From Myxococcales bacterium (GTDB lineage Bacteria > Myxococcota_A > UBA9160 > JALSIO01): a DNA stretch of 11,323 bases. The stretch spans positions 1 through 11,323 of the forward strand of contig JALSIO010000699.1 in NCBI GenBank assembly GCA_026989995.1, given 5' to 3'. Under the pieces are notes generated by a model. It worked only from the letters and a program-made list of their open reading frames with translations, was not told the DNA's origin and made no database searches. A program made the translations under genes and the position numbers. This document shows, one piece after another, positions 1-11,323 of this stretch (position 1 is the stretch's first letter; each line of letters begins with the position of its first letter).

Positions 1-2
1 GG

Positions 3-1334
3 GGCCCCGGCGCCGCAGGGGGTGACGAGAAGGCGCTCGCCCGCCGCGCGCGCCTCGTCGAAGTCGACAAGCGGCGCGTCTGGCATCCCTACACGCCGAT
101 GGACCGCTACCGGGAGGAGGTGGATCCCCTGGTGGTCGTCCGTGCCGAGGGCGTGCGCCTCTACGACCTCGACGGCCGGGTCTACCTCGACGGCAATGCC
201 TCCTGGTGGACGAGCACCCTGGGCCACGGGCACCCGCGGCTCGTGGAGGCGCTCCACCGGCAGTCGGAGCGGCTCTGCCACACGGCGCTCGCGGGGATCA
301 CCCACGAGCCCGCCGCCGAGCTCGCCGAGGAGCTCGTCGCGGTGGCGCCCGCGGGACTCGAGCACGTCTTCTACAGCGACAACGGATCCACGGCCGTGGA
401 GGTCGCCATGAAGATGTGCCTGCAGTACTGGGCGCAAAGCGGCCGTCCCGAGCGCCGGAGCTTCGTGGCCCTCGAGGACGCCTTCCACGGCGAGACCCTG
501 GGCGTGACAGCCCTCGGCGGCGTCGAGGTCTTCCGCCGTCCCTTCGCGGGCAGTCTCCTCGAAGCCGTGCACATCCCCTCGCCGGCGGCTGGCGACGAAG
601 CGCGATCGGTGGCCGCCCTCGAAAACGCCGTGCTCGGGGCACGGGAGCAGGTCGCGGGGGTGGTGCTCGAGCCGCTCGTGCAGGGTGCCGCGGGGATGCG
701 CATCTACGGCCCCTCCTTCCTCCGCGAGGCCCGGCGCATCTGCGACGAGGCCGACGTCTTCCTGGTCTTCGACGAGGTCTTCAGCGGCTACGGGCGGACG
801 GGAACCTTCTGGGCCTGCGAACAGGCGGGGGTGGCGCCGGACCTCCTTTGCACCGCCAAGGGGTTCTCGGGCGGGTTCTTTCCCATGGCGGCGACCCTCG
901 TCTCCCCGCGGATCTTCGAGGGCTTCCTGGGTGGCCCGGAGCGCGCCTTCTACTACGGGCACACCTTCTGTGGCAATCCCCTCGGCGCCGCCGTGGCGCG
1001 GGAGGTGCTCCGGATCTTCCGGGAGGAGCGGGTGATCGAGGGGATCCCGGAGCGTTCCTACCGGATCGAGGCGGCCTTCCGCGAGCTCGAGGCTCTGCCC
1101 GGGGTTGCGGAGTCGAGATGTCTCGGGATGATCGGCGCGCTCGATCTCGCAGGCGACTCGGGCTACCTCGCCCGCGCCGGCTGGGATGTCTTCGAGGAAG
1201 CCCGAAGGCGCGGCGCCTACCTGCGCCCGCTCGGAAACGTGGTCTACGTGACCCCGGCGCTCAACATTCCGCTCGACGATCTCGAGGAGCTGCTCCGGAT
1301 CGTCCGGGAGAGCGTCGCGGCGGTGGCCGGCTGA
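3..1334 (+). CDS. bioA: Adenosylmethionine-8-amino-7-oxononanoate aminotransferase (DAPA synthase), 5' partial
   Basis: BioA is a PLP-dependent class III aminotransferase. It converts 7-keto-8-aminopelargonate to 7,8-diaminopelargonate in cytosolic biotin synthesis, classically with SAM as amino donor. Visible landmarks are the N-terminal VWHPYTPM block (codons from about 78), the SAM-site Trp pair in NASWW, SDNGSTAVEVAMKM (phosphate binding), FDEVFSGYGRTG with the PLP-pyridine Asp, TAKGFSGG with the Schiff-base Lys at 858-860, and YLRPLGN with the substrate-carboxylate Arg. The open frame runs to the left window edge without an ATG, GTG or TTG before the ATG at 99. Starting at 99 would remove the conserved VWHPYTP block, so the true start lies upstream of the window. 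About 443 residues are visible, full family size. E. coli Tyr144/Asp147 (YHGDT) are Phe/Glu here (FHGET). Its 3' end overlaps the convergent SRPBCC gene by 74 bp. Confidence 0.93.
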   Translation, partial: GPGAAGGDEKALARRARLVEVDKRRVWHPYTPMDRYREEVDPLVVVRAEGVRLYDLDGRVYLDGNASWWTSTLGHGHPRLVEALHRQSERLCHTALAGITHEPAAELAEELVAVAPAGLEHVFYSDNGSTAVEVAMKMCLQYWAQSGRPERRSFVALEDAFHGETLGVTALGGVEVFRRPFAGSLLEAVHIPSPAAGDEARSVAALENAVLGAREQVAGVVLEPLVQGAAGMRIYGPSFLREARRICDEADVFLVFDEVFSGYGRTGTFWACEQAGVAPDLLCTAKGFSGGFFPMAATLVSPRIFEGFLGGPERAFYYGHTFCGNPLGAAVAREVLRIFREERVIEGIPERSYRIEAAFRELEALPGVAESRCLGMIGALDLAGDSGYLARAGWDVFEEARRRGAYLRPLGNVVYVTPALNIPLDDLEELLRIVRESVAAVAG

Positions 1335-1806
1335 GGCGCTGCCCGGCGCGTCGATCGGCCGCCTCGAGCGCCTCCTGCACGGCTTCGAGGACACCTCCGG
1401 CGAGGTCCGTGACGAGCTCTCGCACGAGGAAGCGGTCCATGAGCCCACCCACCACCGGTGCTCTATTGGGCGCGACCAGCTTCACGTGCAGGCGCGTGGC
1501 CGGATTCCGGCCCGGCTCGGGACTCAGGGTGAAGGTCTGCTCCAGGCGGAGCCCGCCGAGGGCGAGCGCCGCACGGAACTGCTCAGAGGGCGACACGACG
1601 AGCGGGGTCTCGCGGAGCTCAACGGGAATGCGGCCGAGCCGGCAGCGCCAGCGCACGGGGTGGCCCGGCGCGGGGTAGGGCCCCGAGTCGTCGAGGCTCA
1701 GGAAGGAGAGCGGCCCCCATCGGGTGCGGCGATCCGGGGCGGTGAGGGTGTCCCAGATCTCCTGGCGGCCCGAGCCGATCACGGTCGACATCGCGACGGT
1801 GATCAC
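1261..1806 (-). CDS. SRPBCC-fold (START/polyketide-cyclase-like) protein
   Basis: The 181-residue product has the features of the SRPBCC helix-grip fold. A first strand (residues 1-10) is followed by the GRQEIWDTLTAPDRRTRWGP segment typical of helices 1-2. Further strands carry the alternating pattern VRWRCRLGRIPVELRE and LRLEQTFTLSPEP, and a C-terminal amphipathic helix covers about residues 120-150 (LMDRFLVRELVTDLAGGVLEAVQEAL). Such proteins bind hydrophobic ligands in a cavity; no specific ligand can be named. I chose the GTG at 1806 because it keeps the whole first strand and has a GGAGG about 13 nt upstream. ATG 1791 is an alternative with no visible Shine-Dalgarno. The last 25 or so residues are basic, low-complexity and encoded antisense to the end of bioA, so they may be a non-functional tail. 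It lies 79 bp downstream of the CBS-GGDEF gene on the same strand. Confidence 0.72.
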   Translation of the reverse strand: MITVAMSTVIGSGRQEIWDTLTAPDRRTRWGPLSFLSLDDSGPYPAPGHPVRWRCRLGRIPVELRETPLVVSPSEQFRAALALGGLRLEQTFTLSPEPGRNPATRLHVKLVAPNRAPVVGGLMDRFLVRELVTDLAGGVLEAVQEALEAADRRAGQRLSRPPPRRSPGRSGAAPRDRRAEC

Positions 1807-1885
1807 GGCAGCGTGTTCGCCTCCGCCATCCGCGCAATGGTGCCGAAAGCGCGGCGTTTGGCAAGGATTCGGCCGTCTGGCGGTT

Positions 1886-2902
1886 TCAACGCGCCGCGTC
1901 GGGGCCCACCGCGGCGAGCGCGACGCGGTTCCGGCCCTCCTGCTTGGCCCGGTACAGCGCGTCGTCGGCCCGGCGCAGGACCTCCTGCCAGCAGCCCGGC
2001 CATCCGGGTCCGGGGGTCGCCACGCAGACCCCGACACTCACCGTCACAACGCCGAGGGGCGCGCCGGCGTGGGGCACCGACAGGGCCTCGACCTCACCGC
2101 GGGCCCGCTCGGCCACGGTTCGGGCGCCCTCGGGGTGGGTCTCGGGCAGGATTCCCAGGATCTCCTCGCCCCCGTAGCGGTAGAGCGTGTCGATGCGGCG
2201 GAGGGCCCGGGCGAGGGTCTCGGTGATCCGGCGGAGCACCTCGTCGGCGCGAAGGTGGCCGTAGTGGTCGTTGTAGGCCTTGAAATGGTCCACGTCGAAG
2301 AGCAGGGCGCCCCACGCGCGGCCGGCGCGCCGGGCCATCTCGTGGACCTGGGGCAGGTCGGCGCTCATGGCACGGCGATTGGCGATGCCGAGCAGGTGGT
2401 CGCGCAGCGACTCGTGCTGGAGGCGGAGGTTGGCGGCCACGAGCTCCCGGGTGCGGGCGGCGAGGTCCCGTTCGAGCAGGTCCCGTTCGAGCTCGAGCTG
2501 CACCGCCCGGTGGGCGAGCAGCCGTGGGCGCTCGACGAGGCCGAGGAAGTCGCCGTCGCCGTCCACCACCGCCAGAAAGGCCTCGCCGGTCGCGTCGAGG
2601 AGCTCGAGGGCGTCCTCGCAGGTGGCGCCCGCCGGGATCCGGGTGGGCGGGCGCGCCATCACCTCCCCCACGGTGGCCGGAAGCCGGCGGCCGGTGCGCA
2701 GGTACTCGTCGAGCAGCACGAGGAGGTCGCCGAAGCCGACGCTTCCCACCGGCCTGCCCTCCTCGAGCACCACCGCGAAGGCACAGCCGGTCGTCCGGAG
2801 CAGGGCCACGGCGTCGGCGAGCGGTTGCGACGCCGAGAGCGGACGCGGGTCCTTGGCGAGCAGTGCTTCGACGGGGGCGTTCCTGGCAGATCGGCGGGCC
2901 AC
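1886..2902 (-). CDS. CBS-pair/GGDEF diguanylate cyclase (soluble)
   Basis: This 338-residue protein should make cyclic di-GMP from two GTP. Two CBS motifs occupy about residues 12-65 and 76-130, a module that usually binds adenosyl nucleotides. A charged coiled-coil-like linker (about 134-165) leads into a GGDEF domain opening with LRDHLLGIANRRAM. That domain has the metal Asp203 in FDVDHFKAYND, the active-site variant GGEEI (244-248) and a product-inhibition I-site R235-x-x-D238 exactly five residues before it. It ends with DDALYRAKQEGRNRV. No membrane segment or signal peptide is seen, so it is cytosolic. The GTG start at 2902 is favoured because GAGGAG sits 8 nt upstream; the frame stays open far upstream but only antisense to fdhD. 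Catalytic and inhibitory residues are intact, so activity is likely; the ligand of the CBS pair is unknown. Confidence 0.9.
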   Translation of the reverse strand: MARRSARNAPVEALLAKDPRPLSASQPLADAVALLRTTGCAFAVVLEEGRPVGSVGFGDLLVLLDEYLRTGRRLPATVGEVMARPPTRIPAGATCEDALELLDATGEAFLAVVDGDGDFLGLVERPRLLAHRAVQLELERDLLERDLAARTRELVAANLRLQHESLRDHLLGIANRRAMSADLPQVHEMARRAGRAWGALLFDVDHFKAYNDHYGHLRADEVLRRITETLARALRRIDTLYRYGGEEILGILPETHPEGARTVAERARGEVEALSVPHAGAPLGVVTVSVGVCVATPGPGWPGCWQEVLRRADDALYRAKQEGRNRVALAAVGPDAAR

Positions 2903-3037
2903 GGGGGGTGCTCCTCGTTTCTCCTTCGGCCTGCGGGGCACCTCCGTTGAGGGGCCCCGGTGGGAAGCACACCCGGGAGAAGGCCCGAGAGGTACCCCTG
3001 CGTTGTCCCGAGGCAGTCCCTGGGCGATCCTCCGGGC

Positions 3038-3943
3038 ATGGCACGCGCGCCCGCCGACGGATCCCCGAGCCGGTCGCCGTGGCCCGACGAGGAGCCGACG
3101 GCATCCGTGGAACTCCGCCGCTTCGGTGCCGGCCCGGGCCCCGGCCGGCGCTTCCGAGACCGGGTGGCCGTGGAGGAACCCCTCGAGATCCGCCTCGGCG
3201 ATGCGCCGCTCGCCGTCGTGATGCGGACTCCCGGACACGACGCGGAACTCGCCCGAGGCCTGCTCCTCGCCGAGGGCGTGATCCGGGGGGAGGAGGATCT
3301 CTTCGCCGTGCGCCCCTGCACCCTCGCCGGTCCGGACGGCGAGCCCGCGGGCGTGGTGCGGGTGCAGGTGCGTGCCGGCTGCCTGCCCGACCCGGCCCGG
3401 CTCCGCCGAAACCTCTTCGCGAGCAGCTCCTGCGGGGTGTGCGGCAAGGAGACCCTCGAAAACCTGACGGAGCGATTCGCGCCCCTCGCCGACGAGTGGG
3501 GTCCTCGCGTCACCGCGGATCTGCTGCGGAGCCTCCCGGCTCGCCTCGAGGCAGCGCAGCCGGTCTTCGCCTCGACCGGGGGATTGCACGCGGCAGCCAT
3601 CTTCGACGCCGGGGGGCGGCTGCGCGTGGTGCGCGAGGACGTCGGTCGACACAACGCCGTCGACAAGGTCCTCGGTCACAGCCTGGCCGCCCGGGAGCTT
3701 CCCCTGGGTGGCGACCTGCTGCTGGTCTCCGGGCGGATCTCCTTCGAGATCGTGCAGAAGGGCCTCGCCGCGGGGGTGGCGCTGGTGGCGGGCCTCTCGG
3801 CTCCGACCTCGCTCGCCGTGGGCCTCGCCGAGCGTTTCGGAATGACCCTGGTGGGCTTCCTCCGCGAGGGCGGTTTCAACGTCTACGGTCGCCCCCACCG
3901 CGTGCGCGGACGGATCGGTCCGGCCTCCGGAGCGGGGTCGTGA
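3038..3943 (+). CDS. fdhD: Formate dehydrogenase accessory sulfurtransferase FdhD
   Basis: FdhD carries sulfur from a cysteine desulfurase to the molybdenum bis-MGD cofactor, which formate dehydrogenases of this superfamily need for activity. The 301-residue product shows the family blocks in order: VAVEEPLEIRLGD (43-55), MRTPGHDAELARGLLLAEG (62-80), the catalytic CxxC in SSSCGVCGKETLE (Cys132 and Cys135), STGGLHAAAIFD (179-190), REDVGRHNAVDKV (199-211) and SGRISFEIVQK (231-241). ATG 3038 is chosen over an in-frame ATG at 2960 because family homology begins near residue 22; neither start has a convincing Shine-Dalgarno. The 135-bp region shared with the divergent GGDEF gene shows no clear promoter to me. 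The next gene, its probable client enzyme, starts 17 bp after the stop. Confidence 0.93.
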   Translation: MARAPADGSPSRSPWPDEEPTASVELRRFGAGPGPGRRFRDRVAVEEPLEIRLGDAPLAVVMRTPGHDAELARGLLLAEGVIRGEEDLFAVRPCTLAGPDGEPAGVVRVQVRAGCLPDPARLRRNLFASSSCGVCGKETLENLTERFAPLADEWGPRVTADLLRSLPARLEAAQPVFASTGGLHAAAIFDAGGRLRVVREDVGRHNAVDKVLGHSLAARELPLGGDLLLVSGRISFEIVQKGLAAGVALVAGLSAPTSLAVGLAERFGMTLVGFLREGGFNVYGRPHRVRGRIGPASGAGS

Positions 3944-3959
3944 GGCCTCCCTGGGGGCG

Positions 3960-6212
3960 GTGGTGAGCGGCGGCGAGCCGCCGGCGGGCGGCCCCCGCGC
4001 CGTCCGCGAGACCGCGCGCCACCTTCTGCGCGGGCCGGGCGTGCTTCGCGGCGCCTCCGCGCTCCGGCGCATGAATCGCGAGGGCGGCTTCGACTGTCCG
4101 GGCTGTGCCTGGCCGGCCGATCCCCATGCCGGACTCCTCGACTTCTGCGAGAACGGGGCCAAGGCCCTGGCCCACGAGGCCACGCGCCGCCGGGCGGACC
4201 CCGATTTCTTCGCGCGCCATCCGGTGGCCGCGCTGCGGGAGCGCGCCGACGCCTGGCTCGAGGCACGGGGGCGGATCACCCATCCGATGCGCCGGAGGCC
4301 GGGGGCGAGCCATTTCGAGCCGGTCTCCTGGGATCTCGCCTTCGAGCGGATCGGGCATCACCTCGGCCGCCTCGAGTCGCCCGACCAGGTCGTCTTCTAC
4401 ACCTCCGGTCGCACCTCGAACGAGGCGGCCTTTCTCTACCAGCTTTTCGCCCGGCGCCTCGGCACCAACAACCTGCCCGACTGCTCGAACCTCTGTCACG
4501 AGTCGAGCGGGCGGGCGCTTCTCGAGACCCTCGGCTCCGGCAAGGGCACCGTCTCGCTCCAGGATTTCGACCGGGCCGATGCCATCTTCGTGATCGGCCA
4601 GAACCCGGGCTCCAATCATCCCCGCATGCTGTCCGCCCTCGCGCGGGCACGCCGCCGCGGGGCGCGGATCGTCAGCATCAACCCGCTTCGGGAGCGGGGC
4701 CTCGTGGCCTTCGCCCACCCGCAGGAGCCCGCCGGGCTCCTCGGCGTGGGCACGCCCCTCGCCGAGCTCTTCTGCCGGGTGCGGGTGGGGGGCGACATCG
4801 CGCTGCTCGCGGCGATCATGCGGGAGCTTCTCGACCGCGAGCAGCGGGAGCCCGGGAAGGTGCTCGACCGCGGCTTCATCGCGGAGCACACCGAGGGCTT
4901 CGAGGCCTTCGAGGCGCAGCTCCTGGGACTCGATCGCGAACGCCTCCGCCTGCTCGCAGGAGTGCCGGAAGAGGAGATCCGCCGGGCGGCGGAGATCTAC
5001 GCCGGCGCGGGTCGCACCATCGTGTGCTGGGCCATGGGCATCACGCAGCACGAGCACGGCGTGGACAACGTGCGGCAGATCGTGAACCTGCTGCTTCTGC
5101 GCGGAAACGTGGGGGTACCGGGTGCGGGTGCGCTCCCGGTGCGGGGCCACAGCAACGTCCAGGGCGATCGCACGATGGGGATCGTTCCCGATCCGAGCCA
5201 CGCCTTGCTCGACGCCCTCGCCCGGGAGTTCGCGTTCGAGCCGCCGCGAAGGCCGGGACTCGACAGCGTCGGTGCCCTCGAGGCCCTCGATGCCGGTCGG
5301 ATCCGGGTCTTCGTGGGACTCGGCGGAAACTTCGCCGTGGCCAACGCCGACAGCGAGCGCGCGCAGGCGGCGCTCGGCCGGGCTGCGCTCGGGGTGCACG
5401 TGGCCACGACCCTGAACCGGACCCACCTCGCGGCGAGCGGGGAGGCGATCCTGCTTCCCTGCCTCGCCCGAAGCGAACGCCTTCCGGGCGGCGAGTCCGC
5501 CTTCGTGACCGTCGAGGACTCCATGGCGGTGGTCACCCGATCCGTGGGGAGGCTTCCGCCCGCATCGCCCCACCTCCTGAGCGAGATGGCCATCGTCGCC
5601 GGCATGGCCCGGGCGGCACGCCCCTCCGATCCCCTCGACTGGGAGGCGCTCGCCGCCGACCCCGACCGGGTGCGGGAGCACATCGCCCGGGTCATCCCGG
5701 GCTTCCACGACATGAACCGAAGGGTCCGGGAGCCGGGCGGCTTCGTCCTGCCCCGGAGCGGCTTCGGCGGGCGCCACTTCGGCACGCCGGGAGGGCGCGC
5801 CCGCTTCACGCCGATCTCGCCGCCGGAGCCCTCGCTCGCGCCCGGTGAGCTGCTCCTCACCACGGTGCGCAGCCACGACCAGTTCAACACCACGGTCTAC
5901 GGCGAGGACGACCGCTACCGGGGGATTCGCGGCGGCCGGCGCGTGGTGATGCTCCACCCCGACGATCTCGCCCGCCTCGGCCTCGCCGATGGATGCGCCG
6001 TGCGACTCTCGAGCCGTCTCGGGGACCGGGTGCGCACGCTCGAGGGATTCCGCGCGGTGGCCTACGACGTTCCCCGAGGCTGCGCGGTCACCTACTTCCC
6101 GGAAGCCAATCCGCTGGTCTTCGCCGAGCGCCGGGATCCCCGGAGCCGCACGCCGGCGTTCAAGTCCATTCCGGTCCGGATCGAGCCGGCCTCCGATGCG
6201 CCGTCCGGGTGA
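3960..6212 (+). CDS. Molybdopterin oxidoreductase alpha subunit, FdhA/YdeP-like
   Basis: This 750-residue protein matches the single-subunit 'formate dehydrogenase alpha-like' group that includes E. coli YdeP (about 759 residues). The N-terminus has a three-cysteine pattern, GFDCPGCAW...DFCENGAK (Cys46, Cys49, Cys63). It precedes SWDLAFERIGHHL and a Mo-site segment NLPDCSNLCHESSG, in which Cys179-His180 aligns with the Cys/Sec-His pair of formate dehydrogenases. The C-terminal molybdopterin-dinucleotide domain (about residue 629 on) carries VRSHDQFNTTVYGEDDRYRG, YFPEANPL and TPAFKSIP, which are typical of the group. No Tat signal is seen, so it should be cytoplasmic. The frame opens with two GTG codons (3960, 3963) behind a G-rich stretch; the exact start is uncertain. 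Placement 17 bp after fdhD indicates an operon and FdhD-dependent activation. True substrate and electron partner are unknown: no Fe-S, NADH or cytochrome partner gene is adjacent. Confidence 0.9.
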   Translation: MVSGGEPPAGGPRAVRETARHLLRGPGVLRGASALRRMNREGGFDCPGCAWPADPHAGLLDFCENGAKALAHEATRRRADPDFFARHPVAALRERADAWLEARGRITHPMRRRPGASHFEPVSWDLAFERIGHHLGRLESPDQVVFYTSGRTSNEAAFLYQLFARRLGTNNLPDCSNLCHESSGRALLETLGSGKGTVSLQDFDRADAIFVIGQNPGSNHPRMLSALARARRRGARIVSINPLRERGLVAFAHPQEPAGLLGVGTPLAELFCRVRVGGDIALLAAIMRELLDREQREPGKVLDRGFIAEHTEGFEAFEAQLLGLDRERLRLLAGVPEEEIRRAAEIYAGAGRTIVCWAMGITQHEHGVDNVRQIVNLLLLRGNVGVPGAGALPVRGHSNVQGDRTMGIVPDPSHALLDALAREFAFEPPRRPGLDSVGALEALDAGRIRVFVGLGGNFAVANADSERAQAALGRAALGVHVATTLNRTHLAASGEAILLPCLARSERLPGGESAFVTVEDSMAVVTRSVGRLPPASPHLLSEMAIVAGMARAARPSDPLDWEALAADPDRVREHIARVIPGFHDMNRRVREPGGFVLPRSGFGGRHFGTPGGRARFTPISPPEPSLAPGELLLTTVRSHDQFNTTVYGEDDRYRGIRGGRRVVMLHPDDLARLGLADGCAVRLSSRLGDRVRTLEGFRAVAYDVPRGCAVTYFPEANPLVFAERRDPRSRTPAFKSIPVRIEPASDAPSG

Positions 6213-6222
6213 GGGAGGTGCG

Positions 6223-6259
6223 GAATTCGGGCGGAAGGGAGCCTCTCGCCGCTGAATTC
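6223..6259. other. Imperfect inverted repeat between fdh-like gene and histone promoter
   Basis: Two GAATTC sequences (6223-6228 and 6254-6259) bracket GGGCGG and CCGCT, giving arms that match at about ten positions with a 14-nt loop. The right arm ends 3 bp before the -35 hexamer of the histone promoter. It could be an operator or activator site, or a hairpin at the end of the upstream transcript. No T-tract follows, which argues against a classical intrinsic terminator. Confidence 0.35.
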
Positions 6260-6262
6260 GCT

Positions 6263-6290
6263 TTGACAGGGAGGCCGGAACCCGTATGAT
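6263..6290 (+). promoter_or_regulatory. Sigma70-type promoter for the histone-like gene
   Basis: A perfect -35 hexamer TTGACA (6263-6268) is followed after 16 bp by TATGAT (6285-6290), one mismatch from the -10 consensus. This is the only strong sigma70-like promoter I could find in the window, and it stands out in sequence this GC-rich. Transcription would start near 6297, leaving a leader of about 160 nt before the ATG at 6457. Confidence 0.72.
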
Positions 6291-6296
6291 CCGCCA

Positions 6297-6456
6297 CCAC
6301 GGGACGCCGCTACCGGCGGTGTCCGGGCCTGCCGCCCGGGGGGGGTGGCTCGCTCCGCGGCGGCGACCGACCCGCGCCGCGGGCGGAAGAGCAAGACGCG
6401 AGTCCCGGACCCCGCGGCCGGAATGCCGCGGCGGGGCTCCGACTGGAGGGGAGAGC
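6297..6456 (+). promoter_or_regulatory. Structured 5' leader of the histone-like mRNA
   Basis: About 160 nt separate the predicted start of transcription from the ATG. They contain three visible hairpins: CCGGGC/GCCCGG (6323-6328 with 6334-6339, 5-nt loop), CCGCGGCG/CGCCGCGG (6355-6362 with 6375-6382, 12-nt loop), and GGACCCCGCGGC pairing with the stretch 6425-6440, with a bulge (6407-6440). The third ends only 4 nt before the Shine-Dalgarno GGAGGGGAG (6445-6453). The layout would suit translational control, but I recognise no known riboswitch. In DNA of this GC content some hairpins are expected by chance. Confidence 0.4.
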
Positions 6457-6678
6457 ATGGCTGCTCGAAAGAAGAAGAAGGCGGCGCGGCGCGCGGCGAA
6501 GCGCGGTCCGGCGGAGCTGATCATTTCGAAGGCCCGCACGAAGGCGACGGTGCGGAAGTGCAACGTGGGCTCCGAGTTCTACCAGGCCCTCGACGCCAAG
6601 GTGCGCGAGCTGATCAAGGCCGCGGAGGAGCGGGCGCTTGGCAACAAGCGCAAGACGCTCAAGGCGGTGGACCTCTAG
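6457..6678 (+). CDS. Bacterial histone-fold protein with basic N-terminal tail
   Basis: The 73-residue product looks like a single-fold bacterial histone, the group that includes Bdellovibrio bacteriovorus Bd0055. Residues 1-18 form a tail with nine Lys/Arg (MAARKKKKAARRAAKRGP). Residues 19-32 (AELIISKARTKATV) fit helix 1, 38-62 (from VGSEFYQALDAKVREL to ALG) the long helix 2, and 67-73 a short helix 3. The loop-2 signature R65-K66-T67 followed by D72 has the same seven-residue R-to-D spacing as archaeal histones (GRKTIKAEDI). Helix 3 stops at the Asp-Leu, so the extension archaeal histones use to join dimers is missing. Expected role: a dimeric, nucleoid-associated DNA-binding protein. The ATG at 6457 is supported by GGAGG 7 nt upstream; the in-frame ATG at 6286 lies inside the -10 box. 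It is probably monocistronic. The assignment rests on recognised pattern, not on a search. Confidence 0.8.
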   Translation: MAARKKKKAARRAAKRGPAELIISKARTKATVRKCNVGSEFYQALDAKVRELIKAAEERALGNKRKTLKAVDL

Positions 6679-6694
6679 GTCCGCTCACCCGCCA

Positions 6695-6722
6695 GCGGGG
6701 GGCGCCACGGCGCGCCCCCCGC
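6695..6722 (+). terminator. Strong GC hairpin after the histone-like gene
   Basis: An 11-bp perfect stem (GCGGGGGGCGC, 6695-6705, with GCGCCCCCCGC, 6712-6722) and a 6-nt loop begins 17 nt after the stop codon. It is the natural candidate for the transcript end, but no U-tract follows. A second perfect 7-bp hairpin (CCGCCGG 6719-6725 with CCGGCGG 6731-6737) shares four bases with the first, so the two cannot form fully together. Confidence 0.5.
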
Positions 6723-6855
6723 CGGCGCCTCCGGCGGAAGCGCCCGCCCGGTTCCGTCCCATCCCATTCGGTCCCACCCGGTTGCGCCCGCCCGCGCGCG
6801 GCAGGCCGCGGTTCGCGGATGCGCCGGCTGCGGCGCTCCCGGGGGGTGCCCGCGC

Positions 6856-6960
6856 GTGGCCTCCGCCGGGGCGCACGTGGCCTCGGCTGCGCCGCGGGTG
6901 GGCTCTGCTGCGAAGTGCACGGACTCCACTCCGCTCCGCGTGGGCGCGGCTCCGCGGCCC
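6856..6960. repeat. Degenerate 21-bp tandem repeat, five units
   Basis: Five consecutive 21-bp units begin at 6856, 6877, 6898, 6919 and 6940. Four begin with GTGG, and units 1-3 and 5 share GTGGSC at the start. By my count neighbouring units 1/2 and 2/3 match at 15 of 21 positions, and 3/5 at 14 of 21. Unit 4 is the most diverged. Because 21 is a multiple of three, the frame starting at 6856 reads a seven-residue pattern (VASAGAH, VASAAPR, VGSAAKC, TDSTPLR, VGAAPRP). The minus strand also shows a seven-residue pattern (AAEPTRG-like). There is no start with a Shine-Dalgarno, so I treat it as intergenic repeat DNA. Confidence 0.5.
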
Positions 6961-6979
6961 GACGGGGCCGGGGCGGGGC

Positions 6980-8164
6980 CTAGCGGGGTTCCGGGAATCC
7001 GGGGCCCGCGGTCGCGAGCCCCGCAGCCGGCCTTCCGCCCGCCGCGCGCTCGAGGTTGGCTCCCACGCGGACCAGGCGCGCGAGCGGCACCCGGCGGAGA
7101 ACCTCCACCTCGTCTGCGTCGCGCGTTTCGGCGATGTGCCCGAGGCCCCGGCTCGCGAGCTCGGCGGCGCGCTCCACCGCGCCCGGAAGGGAGTCGGCCT
7201 CGCCGAGCGGCAGGCCGATGGCGCGGGCGAGGGCGTTGGCCACCGCGACGAAGGCGTAGAAGAAGGCCTGTCGCTCGCCCCGGTCGAGACGAGCGGCGGC
7301 GCGGAAGATCGGGTGGCGCGCGTCCTCCTCCACCGGGAGGGAGGGAAGCCACACCGGCAGGCGCCACGCATCGGTCTCGAGCGCCGTCGGGCGCTCGGAC
7401 CAGTCAGCCAGGTGCTCGGGCGGCAGGTGGGCGATGAGCTCCAGGGCCTCCTCCCGGGGCGGGAATCCGAGGTCCTCGAGGCGCCCGTCCCGCCACCGCC
7501 GGGCGAATTCCTCCATCTCGCTTCGGAGCTCGTAGGAGGGGGCGAGGAGCAGCCGGTGGTAGGTGGGCGGGTCTTCGGTGAAGAGCACCCGCAGGAGCCG
7601 GAGGAGGTCGGCGAGGTCGTCCCCGGCACGGAGCGCGCGCAGATAGATGCGTCCATCGATGGTGACCGCGCCCTCCGGCGGCCCGGCGGCCTCGGTGTCG
7701 GCGGGCGGGATCACCTCGACCCGGTCGGTCAGGTAGAGCACCGCGACCTCCGGATCCACGGCCCGCACGAGGCGGAGCAGGGTGGCGTCACCGGCTTCGG
7801 CGGCCGCGGCCAGGTAGCGGCCGAAGCGCTCCGGGGAGAGATCCTCGCCCTGCCACGCGTCGAGGTCCACGCAGGCGGTGATCTGCTCCGGGGTGGCGTG
7901 CTCCAGGATCCAGCCGGCCTCGGGCACGCCCACCGCGTCGAGCGTGGTGCAGAGATCCACCTCGGGGATCCGCGCGATCACCGCCGCCGGGTCGGGGGCG
8001 AGGTCGAGCAGAGCGGGCCGAGCGCGCGCGGGCGCCAGGCAGACCAGCTCCGCGAAGGAATCGGGATCGAGGTCCGCGGCGCTGCGCCGGGCCGCCGCCC
8101 GGTCGCGGGCGGCGAGCTCGAGCAGCGCCCGGGCGCGCGGGGGGAGGCGTCGGGCGGGGAGCAT
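6980..8164 (-). CDS. DUF6178-like protein of unknown function
   Basis: The 394-residue soluble protein is Leu/Ala/Glu-rich and mostly helical, with no signal peptide or membrane segment. It resembles the DUF6178 family, common in deltaproteobacteria, whose N-terminal part is built like the MgtE_N/flagellar-motor helical repeat. Examples are PAAVIARIPEVDLCTTLDAV (59-78), ILEHATPEQITACVDLDAW (86-104) and a following RFGRYLAAAAEAGD stretch. The middle part holds LTDRVEVIPP and YLRALRAGDD segments. The C-terminal half has RQAFFYAFVAVANALARA and AVERAAELASRGLGHIAE helices. No catalytic motif is visible and the function is unknown. The ATG at 8164 is the only good start, though its Shine-Dalgarno is weak. 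It is divergent from the PD40 membrane gene and convergent with the histone gene. Family assignment is from memory and moderately sure. Confidence 0.72.
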   Translation of the reverse strand: MLPARRLPPRARALLELAARDRAAARRSAADLDPDSFAELVCLAPARARPALLDLAPDPAAVIARIPEVDLCTTLDAVGVPEAGWILEHATPEQITACVDLDAWQGEDLSPERFGRYLAAAAEAGDATLLRLVRAVDPEVAVLYLTDRVEVIPPADTEAAGPPEGAVTIDGRIYLRALRAGDDLADLLRLLRVLFTEDPPTYHRLLLAPSYELRSEMEEFARRWRDGRLEDLGFPPREEALELIAHLPPEHLADWSERPTALETDAWRLPVWLPSLPVEEDARHPIFRAAARLDRGERQAFFYAFVAVANALARAIGLPLGEADSLPGAVERAAELASRGLGHIAETRDADEVEVLRRVPLARLVRVGANLERAAGGRPAAGLATAGPGFPEPR

Positions 8165-8167
8165 GGA

Positions 8168-8213
8168 CCGAGGCTAGCAGTGGCGCGGCGGGGCGGGGGT
8201 CTCCGGGCCTCGG
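8168..8213. promoter_or_regulatory. Inverted repeat in divergent intergenic region (possible operator)
   Basis: CCGAGGC (8168-8174) and GCCTCGG (8207-8213) form a perfect 7-bp inverted repeat spaced by 32 bp. It sits in the 86-bp gap between the divergent DUF6178-like gene and the membrane propeller gene. It could be an operator serving both, but in DNA this GC-rich a chance match is quite possible. No convincing -35/-10 pair is visible in the gap. Confidence 0.2.
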
Positions 8214-8250
8214 CTACCCTGGAGGCTCCGTTTCGATCTCGGGAGTGCGG

Positions 8251-9849
8251 GTGATCTGGCGGCTGTGGGTCTTCGTGGCGGGCTGCCCCGTGGGCGCGGT
8301 CGCCTTTCTCGGGTGCACCCTGCACGCGGGCCCGGCCCCCGCCCGGGGCCTCTCGGCGTGGGCGGCGGCCAACCCGTGGCTGGCGCTGGCGGGCTGCTCG
8401 GCCCTCGTCGGCGCGGGGGCCGTGCTCCTCGCCTCCTGGCTGGCCCGCCGCGGAGCGGACGAGCCGGAGCGGCCACTCCACCTCGCGGCCGGGGCGAGCT
8501 TCGGGCTTGCGGGGCTGCCCGCGGCCGTTGCGGCGTGGCTCGACCTCGCCCCGGGCCCTCTCGCGCATGCGGCGCTCGCCGGGGCCGCTTTCGCAGCCGG
8601 ACTGGTCTTCGGGGCCCGGGCGCAGGGGTCGGCCGGCGGGCTCCCGCGCCGCGCCGGCCTCGCCGTGGCGGGGGTGGCGGCCACCTCGATCGCGTTGGTG
8701 GCCCTTTCGGTGGCGGTCGGCGCGGTGGCGGGCCCCGGGACGACGCCTCCGAGGGGCCTCGCGGCGGCCGTGCTCGAGGTGGACGCGCGCACCCCGCTCG
8801 CGCCGGCGCGGAGCTGCCGGCTGTCGGGACCGGCCGAGGTGCTGCTCGATCGCGGTGCCCATCCGGCCTTCGGTCCGGACGGCCGGGTGCTCTGGCTCGA
8901 CGCCCCGGACGAGGCGGGCACACGGCAGATCCACCGCCTCGACCTTCGCACCCGGGAGCTCCAATGCTGGACCTGTGGCGAGCCCGGTCACAACCTGCGT
9001 CCGCGACCGGTGCCGGGCGGCCGTGCCCTGCTCTTCGTCACCAGCCGCCACCGCCGCACCCTCGCGCCCGCGCAGTGGGAGATCCACAGCGTCCGGGCCA
9101 CGGGCGCGCGGCCGCCGCCCGGCTCCCGCCGCCTCACCTTCCACCCGGCCTGGGACGACATCCCGGTGGCGCCTCCGCTTCCGGAGACGGTGGTCTTCAC
9201 TCGCCGCGGGCGGGGCCGGACCGACGTCCTGCTGGCCACCGTGCGCACCGGGCACGGCGGTCTCCTCCTCGGTCCCGCGTCGGTGCTCTTTTCCGGCGGG
9301 CCCGCATTCGCGACCAGCCTGGGATGGTCGCCCGACGCCCGGGCGCTTCTCCTGGCGCGCGGCAACCCGCTCGGCCCGCTCGAGGTGCGGACCCTCGATC
9401 CCGCCACCGGGGAGCAGCGCGGGCTCGGGGACGGGATCGCCTGGAACGCCGGCGCGGCCTTCGCTCCGGACGGGAGCCTGGTCGCGCTGGCCACCACATC
9501 GCGGGCCAGCGCCCTGGGCGTCCTTCCCGGCTGGCTCGGCGCCGTGCTGGCTCCCCTCGCGCTCGGCCGCGACGCCTTCGGGGTGCTCTTCCGCGGGACG
9601 GGTCTTCGTCTGGCAGCCCGCGAAGGCCCGCCGGCCGACTTCGATCTCGGCGAGGCGGGCGACTGGGGCAGTCCCACCGGGATCGGGCTCGCCCCCGATC
9701 TCGGGAGCGTGGTGCTCGGCCAGCGCCGGGAAGGGAAGCGGGGGCTCGAGGAGCGGATCGTGCAGATTCCGCTCCGGTGCGGGACCCCGGACGCCGGTGG
9801 AGCGGGCCGGGGAGCGACGGGGACGGGGCGGGATGCCGCGCATCGATGA
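8251..9849 (+). CDS. Five-TM membrane protein with PD40/TolB-like beta-propeller domain
   Basis: The 532-residue product has five hydrophobic segments at about residues 4-24, 39-64, 76-97, 104-123 and 134-160. A soluble region follows with repeated propeller-blade motifs: HPAFGPDGRVLWLDA, IHRLDLRTRELQ, LRPRPVPGGRALLFVTSRH, SLGWSPDARALLLARG, VRTLDPATGEQRG and AFAPDGSLVALAT. These [PW]-x-[FW]-S-P-D-G-type blades belong to the PD40/TolB family. The arrangement suggests a membrane-anchored sensor or scaffold whose propeller lies on the side opposite the first helix's start; topology is not certain. GTG 8251 is preferred since GGGAG lies 5 nt upstream; GTG 8245 is the alternative. The C-terminal tail (about 20 residues, Gly/Arg-rich) overlaps the Nudix gene by 17 nt, so the two are likely co-transcribed. 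I recognise no named homologue; function unknown. Confidence 0.75.
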   Translation: MIWRLWVFVAGCPVGAVAFLGCTLHAGPAPARGLSAWAAANPWLALAGCSALVGAGAVLLASWLARRGADEPERPLHLAAGASFGLAGLPAAVAAWLDLAPGPLAHAALAGAAFAAGLVFGARAQGSAGGLPRRAGLAVAGVAATSIALVALSVAVGAVAGPGTTPPRGLAAAVLEVDARTPLAPARSCRLSGPAEVLLDRGAHPAFGPDGRVLWLDAPDEAGTRQIHRLDLRTRELQCWTCGEPGHNLRPRPVPGGRALLFVTSRHRRTLAPAQWEIHSVRATGARPPPGSRRLTFHPAWDDIPVAPPLPETVVFTRRGRGRTDVLLATVRTGHGGLLLGPASVLFSGGPAFATSLGWSPDARALLLARGNPLGPLEVRTLDPATGEQRGLGDGIAWNAGAAFAPDGSLVALATTSRASALGVLPGWLGAVLAPLALGRDAFGVLFRGTGLRLAAREGPPADFDLGEAGDWGSPTGIGLAPDLGSVVLGQRREGKRGLEERIVQIPLRCGTPDAGGAGRGATGTGRDAAHR

Positions 9850-10438
9850 GATCCGGGATGCGCTCGGTCGTCGACACCCTCGCCTCCTCGAAGGCGACAG
9901 GCGGGCGGCCGTGGCCCTGGTGCTCCGCGAGGGCGCGCGGGGGTCGGAGGTCCTGTTCATCGAGCGGGCGCGCTTCGAGGACGACCCGTGGTCCGGCCAC
10001 ATGGCGTTCCCCGGCGGCCGCGTCGACCCGGGCGACGCGGATGCGCGCCGGGCCGCGGAGCGCGAGACGGAGGAGGAGGTGGGGCTCTCGCTGGCCCGCG
10101 CCGAGCCCCTCGGTCGACTCCACGATCTGAAGGAGTTCGGGCGGCCGGAGGGGCTGGTGATCTCGGCGTTCGCGTACCACCTCCCGGATCCGGGCCCCCT
10201 GCGGCCGAACTACGAGGTGGCCTCCGCGTTCTTCGTGCCCCTGCGCGACCTCCTCGATCCCGCCCGCCACGTGGCGTGGAGGCGTCCGGGTCTCCCGGTC
10301 GCCTTCCCGGGGATCGTGGTGGGGGACCCGGACCGCCACGTGGTGTGGGGGCTCACCTTCCGCTTCCTCGAGGACTTCTTCGAGGCGCTCGGGCGCCCGC
10401 TTCGGCACCCGGTTCCCTTTCCGAGGCGAGCGCGCTGA
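9833..10438 (+). CDS. Nudix hydrolase, CoA pyrophosphatase (NudL)-like
   Basis: The 201-residue protein carries a Nudix box: FPGGRVDPGDAD leading to RETEEEVGL (residues 59-85). Glu78, Glu80, Glu81 and Glu82 provide the metal-binding Glu cluster. The spacing, with eight residues between the Asp after GGxVDPx and the RE, matches E. coli NudL (CoA pyrophosphatase) rather than the standard seven. The preceding VLFIERARFEDDPWSGHMAFPGG corresponds to the UPF0035 signature before the box. Such enzymes split coenzyme A and its esters to phosphopantetheine and adenosine 3',5'-bisphosphate. ATG 9833 overlaps the end of the propeller gene by 17 nt and has a GGGGCGGG purine run before it, so translational coupling is likely. 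Substrate is by family inference; other Nudix activities are possible. Confidence 0.87.
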   Translation: MPRIDEIRDALGRRHPRLLEGDRRAAVALVLREGARGSEVLFIERARFEDDPWSGHMAFPGGRVDPGDADARRAAERETEEEVGLSLARAEPLGRLHDLKEFGRPEGLVISAFAYHLPDPGPLRPNYEVASAFFVPLRDLLDPARHVAWRRPGLPVAFPGIVVGDPDRHVVWGLTFRFLEDFFEALGRPLRHPVPFPRRAR

Positions 10439-10467
10439 GGGGACCGGAGGCGGGGTGCCCGGTCGCT

Positions 10468-10501
10468 GCCGCCGTGTGGAGTGGGATCGCCAGCCGGCGG
10501 C
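10468..10501. terminator. Possible bidirectional hairpin between convergent genes
   Basis: GCCGCCG (10468-10474) pairs perfectly with CGGCGGC (10495-10501) across a 20-nt loop. The pair sits in the 65-bp gap between the convergent stops of the Nudix and ACT genes. There is no T-tract on either strand and the loop is long, so this is a weak candidate. Confidence 0.2.
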
Positions 10502-10503
10502 GC

Positions 10504-11046
10504 TCAGGTGTCGGCGGGCATGAGCGCCACGTCGATCACCAGCCGGTCGGCCTCTGCCTCGAGCGCCTCCCGGAGCCTGCGGGGGTCGACGGGCTCGGGG
10601 ACCTCGACCCGCATCCGCAGGACGTAGTGCGGCGAGCCGCCCGGGCCGGGGCGGCTCTCGGTCTCGAGCTCCGCGATGTTGACACCGTGGTCCGCAAGCA
10701 CCCGGCACAGGCCGGCCACGATTCCGGCCCGGTCCTCACCGGCGGCCTCCACGCGGTAGAGCCGCGTGCCCGGTGCGGGCACCGGCGGGCGTCGCTCGCC
10801 CTCGAGGCGCCGGATCAGGATGGTGAGGCCGTGGTCGCGTTCGAGCTGCTTGGCGCCGACGGCGAGGCGGTGGCCGGCCTCCTCGTCCGCCGCGGAGCAG
10901 AGGAGGATCGCCGCGAAGTCGCTCCCGAGCAGCGTCATCCGCGAGTCCTCGAGGTTGGCATCGCACTCGTAGACGAGCCGCGCGAGGTCCGCCACGAGCC
11001 CCGGCCGATCGCGGCCGATCGCGGAAAGGATGAACCAGCGCCTCAT
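10504..11046 (-). CDS. Double ACT-domain protein, GcvR-like
   Basis: The 180-residue protein consists of two ACT domains. The first (about 3-77) has FILSAIGRDRPGLVADLARLVYECDANLEDSRMTLLGSDFAAIL in the family order: beta-1, the DRPGLV turn, helix, NxxDSRM strand. The second (about 96-176) has YRVEAAGEDRAGIVAGLCRVLADHGVNIAELETE. This is the layout of GcvR, the E. coli regulator that restrains GcvA at the glycine-cleavage operon by sensing glycine. No gcv genes are in view, so the amino-acid ligand and target are unknown here. ATG 11046 has GGAGG 4 nt upstream and overlaps the preceding gene's stop as ATGA, showing translational coupling. Confidence 0.88.
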   Translation of the reverse strand: MRRWFILSAIGRDRPGLVADLARLVYECDANLEDSRMTLLGSDFAAILLCSAADEEAGHRLAVGAKQLERDHGLTILIRRLEGERRPPVPAPGTRLYRVEAAGEDRAGIVAGLCRVLADHGVNIAELETESRPGPGGSPHYVLRMRVEVPEPVDPRRLREALEAEADRLVIDVALMPADT

Positions 11047-11264
11047 CGGTCCTCCCGGCCAGGCGCGATCCTAGCAGAGCCCCCGGTGGCCTCCCGGGCT
11101 TCGAAGCCCGGACAGGCCGCGACCGGAAGGGGCGGGTAGCGGCGATAGCGGGGATCCCCGTCCGCCCGCGCGCAGCGCCAGAAGCGGCTGCCGCGGGCAC
11201 TCACCTGCAGGCGGGCGTGTCGGCATCGGCCACAGAGGCCGGGGTCCGGGGCGGAATCGCTCAC
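11043..11264 (-). CDS. Four-cysteine mini-protein (putative zinc-ribbon-like)
   Basis: The 73-residue protein has a CxxC pair (Cys11, Cys14 in GLCGRCRH), then Cys31 in GSRFWRC and Cys51 in LPVAACPGFE, with a YPPLPV segment between them. Four spaced cysteines suggest a structural metal site, presumably zinc, though that is inference. Similar small 'C..C...C...YP.LPV..C' proteins are widespread and uncharacterised as far as I recall. The GTG at 11264 overlaps the stop of the upstream gene as GTGA, and its own stop overlaps the next ATG as ATGA. That tight coupling is the main support for the start and for this being a real gene. Function unknown. Confidence 0.75.
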   Translation of the reverse strand: MSDSAPDPGLCGRCRHARLQVSARGSRFWRCARADGDPRYRRYPPLPVAACPGFEAREATGGSARIAPGREDR

Positions 11265-11323
11265 GGCGCCGGCTCGACCTCCAGCAGGCAACCGCGTCCG
11301 GTGTCGGGCACGCGAATCTCGAG
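11261..11323 (-). CDS. C-terminus of an unidentified gene, truncated by the window edge
   Basis: Only the last 20 codons are present (LEIRVPDTGRGCLLEVEPAP, then TGA). The frame is open to the right edge and its stop overlaps the GTG of the four-cysteine gene, so it is probably the upstream member of the same operon. The product cannot be identified from this fragment. Confidence 0.55.
   Translation of the reverse strand, partial: LEIRVPDTGRGCLLEVEPAP

Follow-up and report, generated by a model that had tools for sequence, protein, structure and literature searches.

The gene described here lies in an 11,323-nucleotide (nt) stretch of DNA (hereafter, the window) from a Myxococcales bacterium (Myxococcota_A; UBA9160; JALSIO01), spanning positions 1-11,323 of the forward strand of contig JALSIO010000699.1 in assembly GCA_026989995.1. 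An open reading frame with an ATG start at 6457-6678 on the forward strand encodes a 73-residue histone, P0001 (MAARKKKKAARRAAKRGPAELIISKARTKATVRKCNVGSEFYQALDAKVRELIKAAEERALGNKRKTLKAVDL), which by sequence comparison groups with the face-to-face (FtF), α3-truncated histones rather than with the histones that form dimers. The locus comprises the following features, with the evidence in parentheses:

6457..6678, forward strand: histone gene P0001, 73 amino acids, stop codon included (open reading frame, PDB sequence matches, AlphaFold2, PDB fold matches)
6457..6513, forward strand: N-terminal tail, residues 1-19, with nine lysine or arginine (K/R) and 0 acidic residues (sequence; tails of relatives compared)
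6514..6675, forward strand: histone fold, residues 20-73, with helix 1 to residue 32, helix 2 at 41-62, and a one-turn helix 3 at 70-72 (AlphaFold2, PDB matches)
6631..6672, forward strand: FtF signature R59-x3-N63-x-R65-x-T67-x4-D72 (kept in loci, homologues, and 54 aligned rows)
6445..6449, forward strand: Shine-Dalgarno sequence GGAGG, 7 nt ahead of the ATG (five-base match)
6263..6290, forward strand: near-consensus sigma-70 promoter, TTGACA-16-TATGAT, 11/12 (one found, against a mean of 0.0 in shuffles)
6291..6456, forward strand: presumed 5′ leader, start inferred, with a 10-bp hairpin at 6302-6324 and eight consecutive G at 6338-6345 (sequence, folding)
6980..8164, reverse strand: DUF6178 (PF19676) gene, convergent, a frequent downstream neighbor (E 1.3e-62)

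Histone fold and face-to-face signature of P0001

The AlphaFold2 model of P0001, built on a 54-row alignment (mean predicted local distance difference test score, pLDDT, 78; predicted template modeling score 0.50), displayed two helices, at residues 18-32 and 41-62, and close to the chain end at residue 73 one more helical turn, formed by residues 70-72. This single turn corresponds to the helix 3 of FtF histones (3-4 residues) and not to that of the HMfB-type histones (~10 residues). The pattern of a long central helix and a very short third one, which an initial annotation of the locus had read from the sequence, is thereby seen in the model, and R65-K66-T67 and D72 stand at the positions given there. 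Residues 3-15 of the tail were also modeled as a helix, but with a pLDDT of ~58.

Comparison of the model with the PDB placed two FtF histones first, followed by the dimer histone HBb and then by other histone folds; Foldseek ranks 1-4 were chains of HTkC and HLp (E 0.019-0.068), with HBb next, and no Foldseek match reached E ≤ 0.001. Sequence searches of the PDB gave the same order. With P0001 alone, phmmer found a single chain, 9F2C (E 3.1e-4), which is HTkC, an archaeal histone described as FtF by Schwab et al. (PMC11390915), while a profile built from 54 relatives matched 9F2C at 1.6e-10 and 9QT0 (HLp) at 2.1e-9, and HBb at 0.021 (8CMP) and 0.026 (8FVX); the remaining 15 of the 19 rows of the profile search (E 0.05-1.4) were by name no histones. 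The proposal of a true histone fold is thus supported by both the sequence and the fold matches, at the level of a single-chain structure prediction. In Pfam and NCBIfam, P0001 had only insignificant matches to other families, which is a limit of those libraries and no evidence against a histone; a better match to an unrelated family, such as a ribosomal or HU-like protein, was sought in the same libraries, and none was significant. No match of P0001 to the HU/IHF family (PF00216) was listed at E ≤ 10, while PF00216 was found elsewhere in the same genome, and PADLOC returned two insignificant matches only. Of 1437 candidates from the homologue search, 1430 passed E ≤ 1e-3, the antisense translation P0002 being left out of the counts; homologue statistics below refer to the best 120 of the 1430.

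According to the published accounts, FtF histones close into tetramers through their short helix 3 (PMC11390915, PMC12701072). Their conserved residues are R48, N52, R54, T56, and D61 of the FtF profile (Schwab et al., PMC11390915), and the HLp tetramer is built by R49, N53, and R55 together with a truncated helix 3 (PMC12701072), whereas HBb (Bd0055) is reported as a dimer only, without the R48/N52 tetramer pair (PMC11390915). The matching residues of P0001, R59, N63, R65, T67, and D72, are present in the window and in 75/75 named loci, in the query and 120/120 homologues, and are invariant across the 54 aligned rows, so that both equivalents of the pair that dimer histones lack are present here. 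Locus statistics cover the window (L001) and L021-L096, excluding L090 (incomplete, without a start), which gives 76 loci; L004, L006-L008, L012, L014, L016, and L019, which lie on the other strand and received no start or one in the wrong frame, were left out.

Certain genomes in the class encode a further histone that matches more weakly; five of these second histones were read (L100-L104, from genomes G037, G078, G074, G075, and G014). The N63 equivalent is absent from all five (D in L100-L103, E in L104), and at R59 another residue stands in L100, L102, and L104 but the arginine itself in L101 and L103, as in L109 from outside the class; by eye, none of the second histones read has the R59/N63 pair together. 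In the PDB, L100-L103 rank HBb first (5e-13, 1.2e-10, 6.5e-14, and 3.6e-8, respectively), with HLp and HTkC below it in 4/4 cases, the reverse of the ranking of P0001. Since R59 is kept in L101, L103, and L109, and HTkC, an FtF histone, carries Glu where P0001 has N63, no single residue decides between the FtF and dimer types; it is the PDB ranking that decides, and it supports, on sequence grounds, the FtF assignment of P0001. L103, L104, and L109 also display an N-terminal Cys-rich stretch that by eye resembles the ZZ domain reported by Schwab et al. As L100-L103 match HBb best and L103 and L104 are ZZ-like, several histone types coexist with HU in the class.

These results bear on the suggestion of the initial annotation that the protein forms dimers unable to stack through helix 3. 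As FtF histones form tetramers precisely through a short helix 3, and as P0001 has the signature residues and an FtF-first PDB ranking, this suggestion is probably wrong.

Among the solved histones, HTkC (Thermococcus kodakarensis) is the closest in sequence to P0001, although its fold starts from about residue 2, without a tail, and has the Glu in place of N63. HLp (Leptospira perolatii, PDB 9QT0-9QT2) is a bacterial FtF histone that shares the truncated helix 3, the R/N/R tetramer residues, and the RD clamp residues with P0001, at 23% identity over 56 aligned residues. It differs in the shorter stretch ahead of its fold (residue 17 of P0001 aligns with HLp residue 8), in the loop-1 cysteine that P0001 has, and in its reported gene neighbors, SMC/MAP, as opposed to DUF6178. 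HLp is described as a tetramer that protects 35-72 bp of DNA and wraps and compacts it (PMC12701072). HBb of Bdellovibrio bacteriovorus (8CMP, 8FVX) has the α3-truncated fold and the RKT motif in common with P0001, with a much weaker profile match (0.02). The HMfB-type nucleosomal archaeal histones share the histone fold and RKTxxxxD, but they have the longer helix 3, stack into hypernucleosomes, and are generally tailless (according to PMC11390915).

The basic tail in P0001 and its relatives

The initial annotation had counted nine K/R within residues 1-18, and these are indeed R4, K5, K6, K7, K8, R11, R12, K15, and R16. The tail of P0001 is probably translated, since its sequence contains no in-frame ATG, GTG, or TTG. 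For comparison, tails were counted up to the residue before the lead residue, acidic or other, of the LIISK/EMIISK landmark, which L091, L092, L094, and L096 lack, leaving 72 of the 76 loci. Among these 72, the tail comprises 8-21 residues (median 15) with 1-11 K/R (median 7), at least five K/R in 60/72 and an acidic residue in 0/72; its composition is dominated by K (0.38), A (0.31), and R (0.11). The positive charge is thus retained across a loosely kept sequence. The tail is real but of a kind already known: in the published descriptions, tails are common and mostly positive among bacterial FtF histones (Schwab et al., PMC11390915), while most bacterial singlet histones are without long tails (Hocher et al., PMC10627809).

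Three further observations concern the protein. The loop-1 cysteine of P0001, C35, lies in a [KR]CNV motif found in the query and 119/120 homologues and in 72/76 loci, one of which (L025) reads RCNV. The motif was not seen in L091 and L092, two Thorarchaeota tailless FtF-like histones with 53% and 51% identity over query residues 21-73, which have GNKRKTLK in common with the bacterial group; they may reflect a cross-domain transfer or a misassignment of metagenome-assembled genomes. Lastly, genome G023 encodes a fused doublet of 125 residues, P0003 (L052/L099; G023:C50:163422-163793), whose halves are identical in 165/165 nt, so that either the gene was duplicated in frame very recently or the doublet is an artefact of assembly. 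It was considered as a view of the handshake dimer; its model (pLDDT 50) was unusable, and nothing was inferred from it.

Distribution, promoter, and leader of the histone gene

P0001 was matched in 56/60 genomes searched (its own included) and in 33/33 of the good ones, at one place each except in G023, which has two matches within a single frame. The 54-relative profile found the histone in 83/90 genomes of the class (own assembly among the 90) and in 42/42 of those with a completeness of 90% or more and a contamination of 5% or less. In a sample of the phylum, 31/112 genomes matched, 23 of them from the class and 8/89 from elsewhere, all weaker, where 61 no-match genomes without a listing were taken as outside the class from their handle numbering. 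By title, 55/76 named loci are Myxococcota, Myxococcales, Myxococcaceae, or Deltaproteobacteria, and the others include unplaced bacteria, Proteobacteria, Spirochaeta, Latescibacterota, Methylomirabilota/NC10, Gemmatimonadetes, Planctomycetota, and the two Thorarchaeota. An HU/IHF-family gene (PF00216) was present in 60/60 genomes searched, including that of the window (G000), in contrast to Leptospira, where HLp is reported in hosts without HU (PMC12701072).

The initial annotation had attributed to the gene its own strong promoter, and at the sequence level this is borne out by TTGACA-16-TATGAT. TTGACA-N16..18-TATGAT occurs once in the 3.83-Mb assembly, at the histone promoter, and the TATAAT version 0 times; of the 11/12 variants, only the TATGAT form was counted. 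Across the 90 class genomes, TTGACW-N16-TATGAT gave 35 sites against one in the reversed control, and coordinate comparison places 21 of these immediately ahead of the histone gene and the other 14 elsewhere; the exact pattern is absent from 58/90 genomes. More broadly, in 52/75 sequences (the window and named loci, with L071 excluded from promoter-site and G-run counts for too little upstream DNA), the best promoter-like site within the upstream 300 nt has a score of 9-11 out of 12, as compared to 5/430 control windows of the same loci at ≥ 9, controls that were not matched for being intergenic.

The G-run and hairpin of the window resemble the leaders of its relatives, where GGGGG occurs 18-140 nt upstream in 47/75 loci versus 383/2803 control windows, and CCCCC in 7/75. 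In f4, one family of the order, leaders have in common a hairpin, the G-run, and a long stem that encloses a further hairpin, followed by the Shine-Dalgarno sequence; leaders of this type precede L029, L035-L038, L040, L042, L044 (2852-2945), L046, L048, L055, L057, L058, and L072. When these 14 leaders were fitted to a covariance model, both partners changed in 17/23 pairs, 93.4% of cells paired, and 0/500 shuffles reached either value, a fitting that itself favors the structure; in a seven-row MAFFT alignment, 6/23 pairs changed on both sides, which 4/500 shuffles reached. A second group of eight leaders (L045, L049, L054, L067, L068, L070, L073, and L074), aligned by MAFFT alone, gave 9/15 pairs and 0/500 shuffles, with the structure derived from that same group.

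The first model, R1, was built from seven sequences after L079, L029, L037, L040, and L072 had been removed (MAFFT misaligned some leaders), and it recovered the last four but not L079. For L057, L058, and L035, R1 gave E 0.06-0.14 over 76 sources; they entered the second model, R2, after a search of just 14 chosen loci had given them E 0.01-0.03, and R2 is therefore partly self-fulfilling for these three. Against the 90 class genomes, R2 gave 14 matches at E ≤ 3.3e-5, all directly upstream of a histone gene, which are the 14 training sequences, as judged by their equal bit scores. One new match, in G011 (E 0.0058), is also directly upstream of a histone gene, while the other 13 places (E 0.0075-1, including G087:C1 at 0.0075) lie elsewhere. 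The leader element is thus specific to the histone gene in 15/30 f4 genomes and, by R2, not shown beyond them. Rfam gave no family at gathering score in 12 loci. Such a leader could serve autoregulation or stabilize the mRNA, and control of histone dosage is suggested by the conservation of the promoter together with the leaders found in relatives.

Within the window, neither R1 nor R2 matched the histone leader (each had one weak match, of E 3 and 7.6, elsewhere in the window), and the folding of this leader does not stand out, with a z-score of -0.70 and 44/200 shuffles at least as low. For these two reasons, we do not propose a leader RNA in the window; its one Rfam match (E 0.54) is under the cut-off, and none is credible.

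As for neighboring genes, a DUF6178 relative is encoded downstream, on the strand opposite to the histone, in 53/76 named loci, and in 46/62 of those whose downstream DNA covers 2500 nt or more; its aligned piece begins 103-754 nt past the histone stop in 40 loci and 1.7-2.1 kb past it in 13. We found no mention of DUF6178 in the literature searched. Upstream of the window's histone lie genes for FdhD and a molybdopterin oxidoreductase, each a histone neighbor in 0/76 named loci (flanks of at most 3 kb).

A tailed, probably tetrameric face-to-face histone beside HU/IHF

Taken together, we consider it likely that P0001 is an FtF histone that forms a DNA-wrapping ring tetramer, contacts DNA through its tails, and is expressed from a strong promoter of its own beside HU/IHF. 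By analogy with its relatives, two chains would pair into a handshake dimer, and two dimers would close into a torus-shaped tetramer, meeting where helix 2 ends, in loop 2, and at the single turn of helix 3 (R59, N63, R65, and the C terminus). DNA, ~60 bp by analogy with HLp, would wrap round this ring, and the flexible K/A/R tails may add nonspecific DNA contacts. P0001 would be strongly transcribed from its own promoter and act beside HU/IHF, and a role as a major chromatin component, as first proposed, is plausible.

The reading of the initial annotation, a bacterial dimer histone like HBb/Bd0055 that would bend or coat DNA as dimers only, draws on the truncated helix 3 and RKT motif that HBb and P0001 have in common, and on VIA-align Z scores that are tied between HLp (6.4) and HBb (6.0). 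We regard it as unlikely, given that R59 and N63 are invariant here while dimer histones lack them in the account of Schwab et al. (PMC11390915), that profile E-values place the FtF histones seven to eight orders of magnitude ahead of HBb, and that the dimer-type histones of related genomes rank the PDB oppositely. That P0001 is no histone at all but an HU-like, ribosomal, or other basic protein would fit the missing Pfam and NCBIfam matches, yet the PDB sequence and structure matches are histones and the same genome separately encodes an HU/IHF-family protein, making this explanation extremely improbable.

A more serious alternative concerns function: P0001 could be a minor or specialized DNA-binding protein, for example a regulatory or RNA-binding one, with packing left to HU/IHF. 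This role is compatible with the FtF fold, so that its odds overlap with those of the ring-forming chromatin protein, and it accords with the HU/IHF matches in 60/60 genomes searched. On the other hand, the histone is found in nearly all class genomes, its gene has the genome's only TTGACA-N16..18-TATGAT promoter (with the limit on variants given above), and the FtF homologue of Leptospira interrogans is reported to be essential and highly expressed (PMC11390915); we therefore hold a minor role to be somewhat doubtful.

The type of protein, a bacterial FtF histone with a positive tail, is already in print. What our analysis adds is its class-wide presence beside HU/IHF, the conserved promoter, the covarying leader in relatives, and the convergent DUF6178 neighbor; neither a class-wide histone beside HU nor a leader RNA of a histone gene is described in the texts on bacterial histones and Myxococcota that were covered (PMC11317129, PMC12701072, PMC11390915; supplementary tables excluded), and bacterial histones are mentioned in none of the top 10 of 438 papers on leaders and covariation. 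More tentatively, the tailed FtF histone may be a core chromatin protein together with HU/IHF throughout this class of uncultured Myxococcota-type bacteria, with a structured leader that tunes or autoregulates its synthesis in part of it, a proposal to which we give rather less than even chances. If true, this would make the leader the first RNA element to control a histone gene in bacteria. The usual picture of bacterial histones is a patchy one, whereas here a histone is near-universal in the sampled genomes of a single class. Because a tailed histone stands next to HU/IHF in nearly all of these genomes, the class would lend itself to studies of the way in which a genome is divided between histones and classical nucleoid proteins, and of what basic tails do in bacteria.
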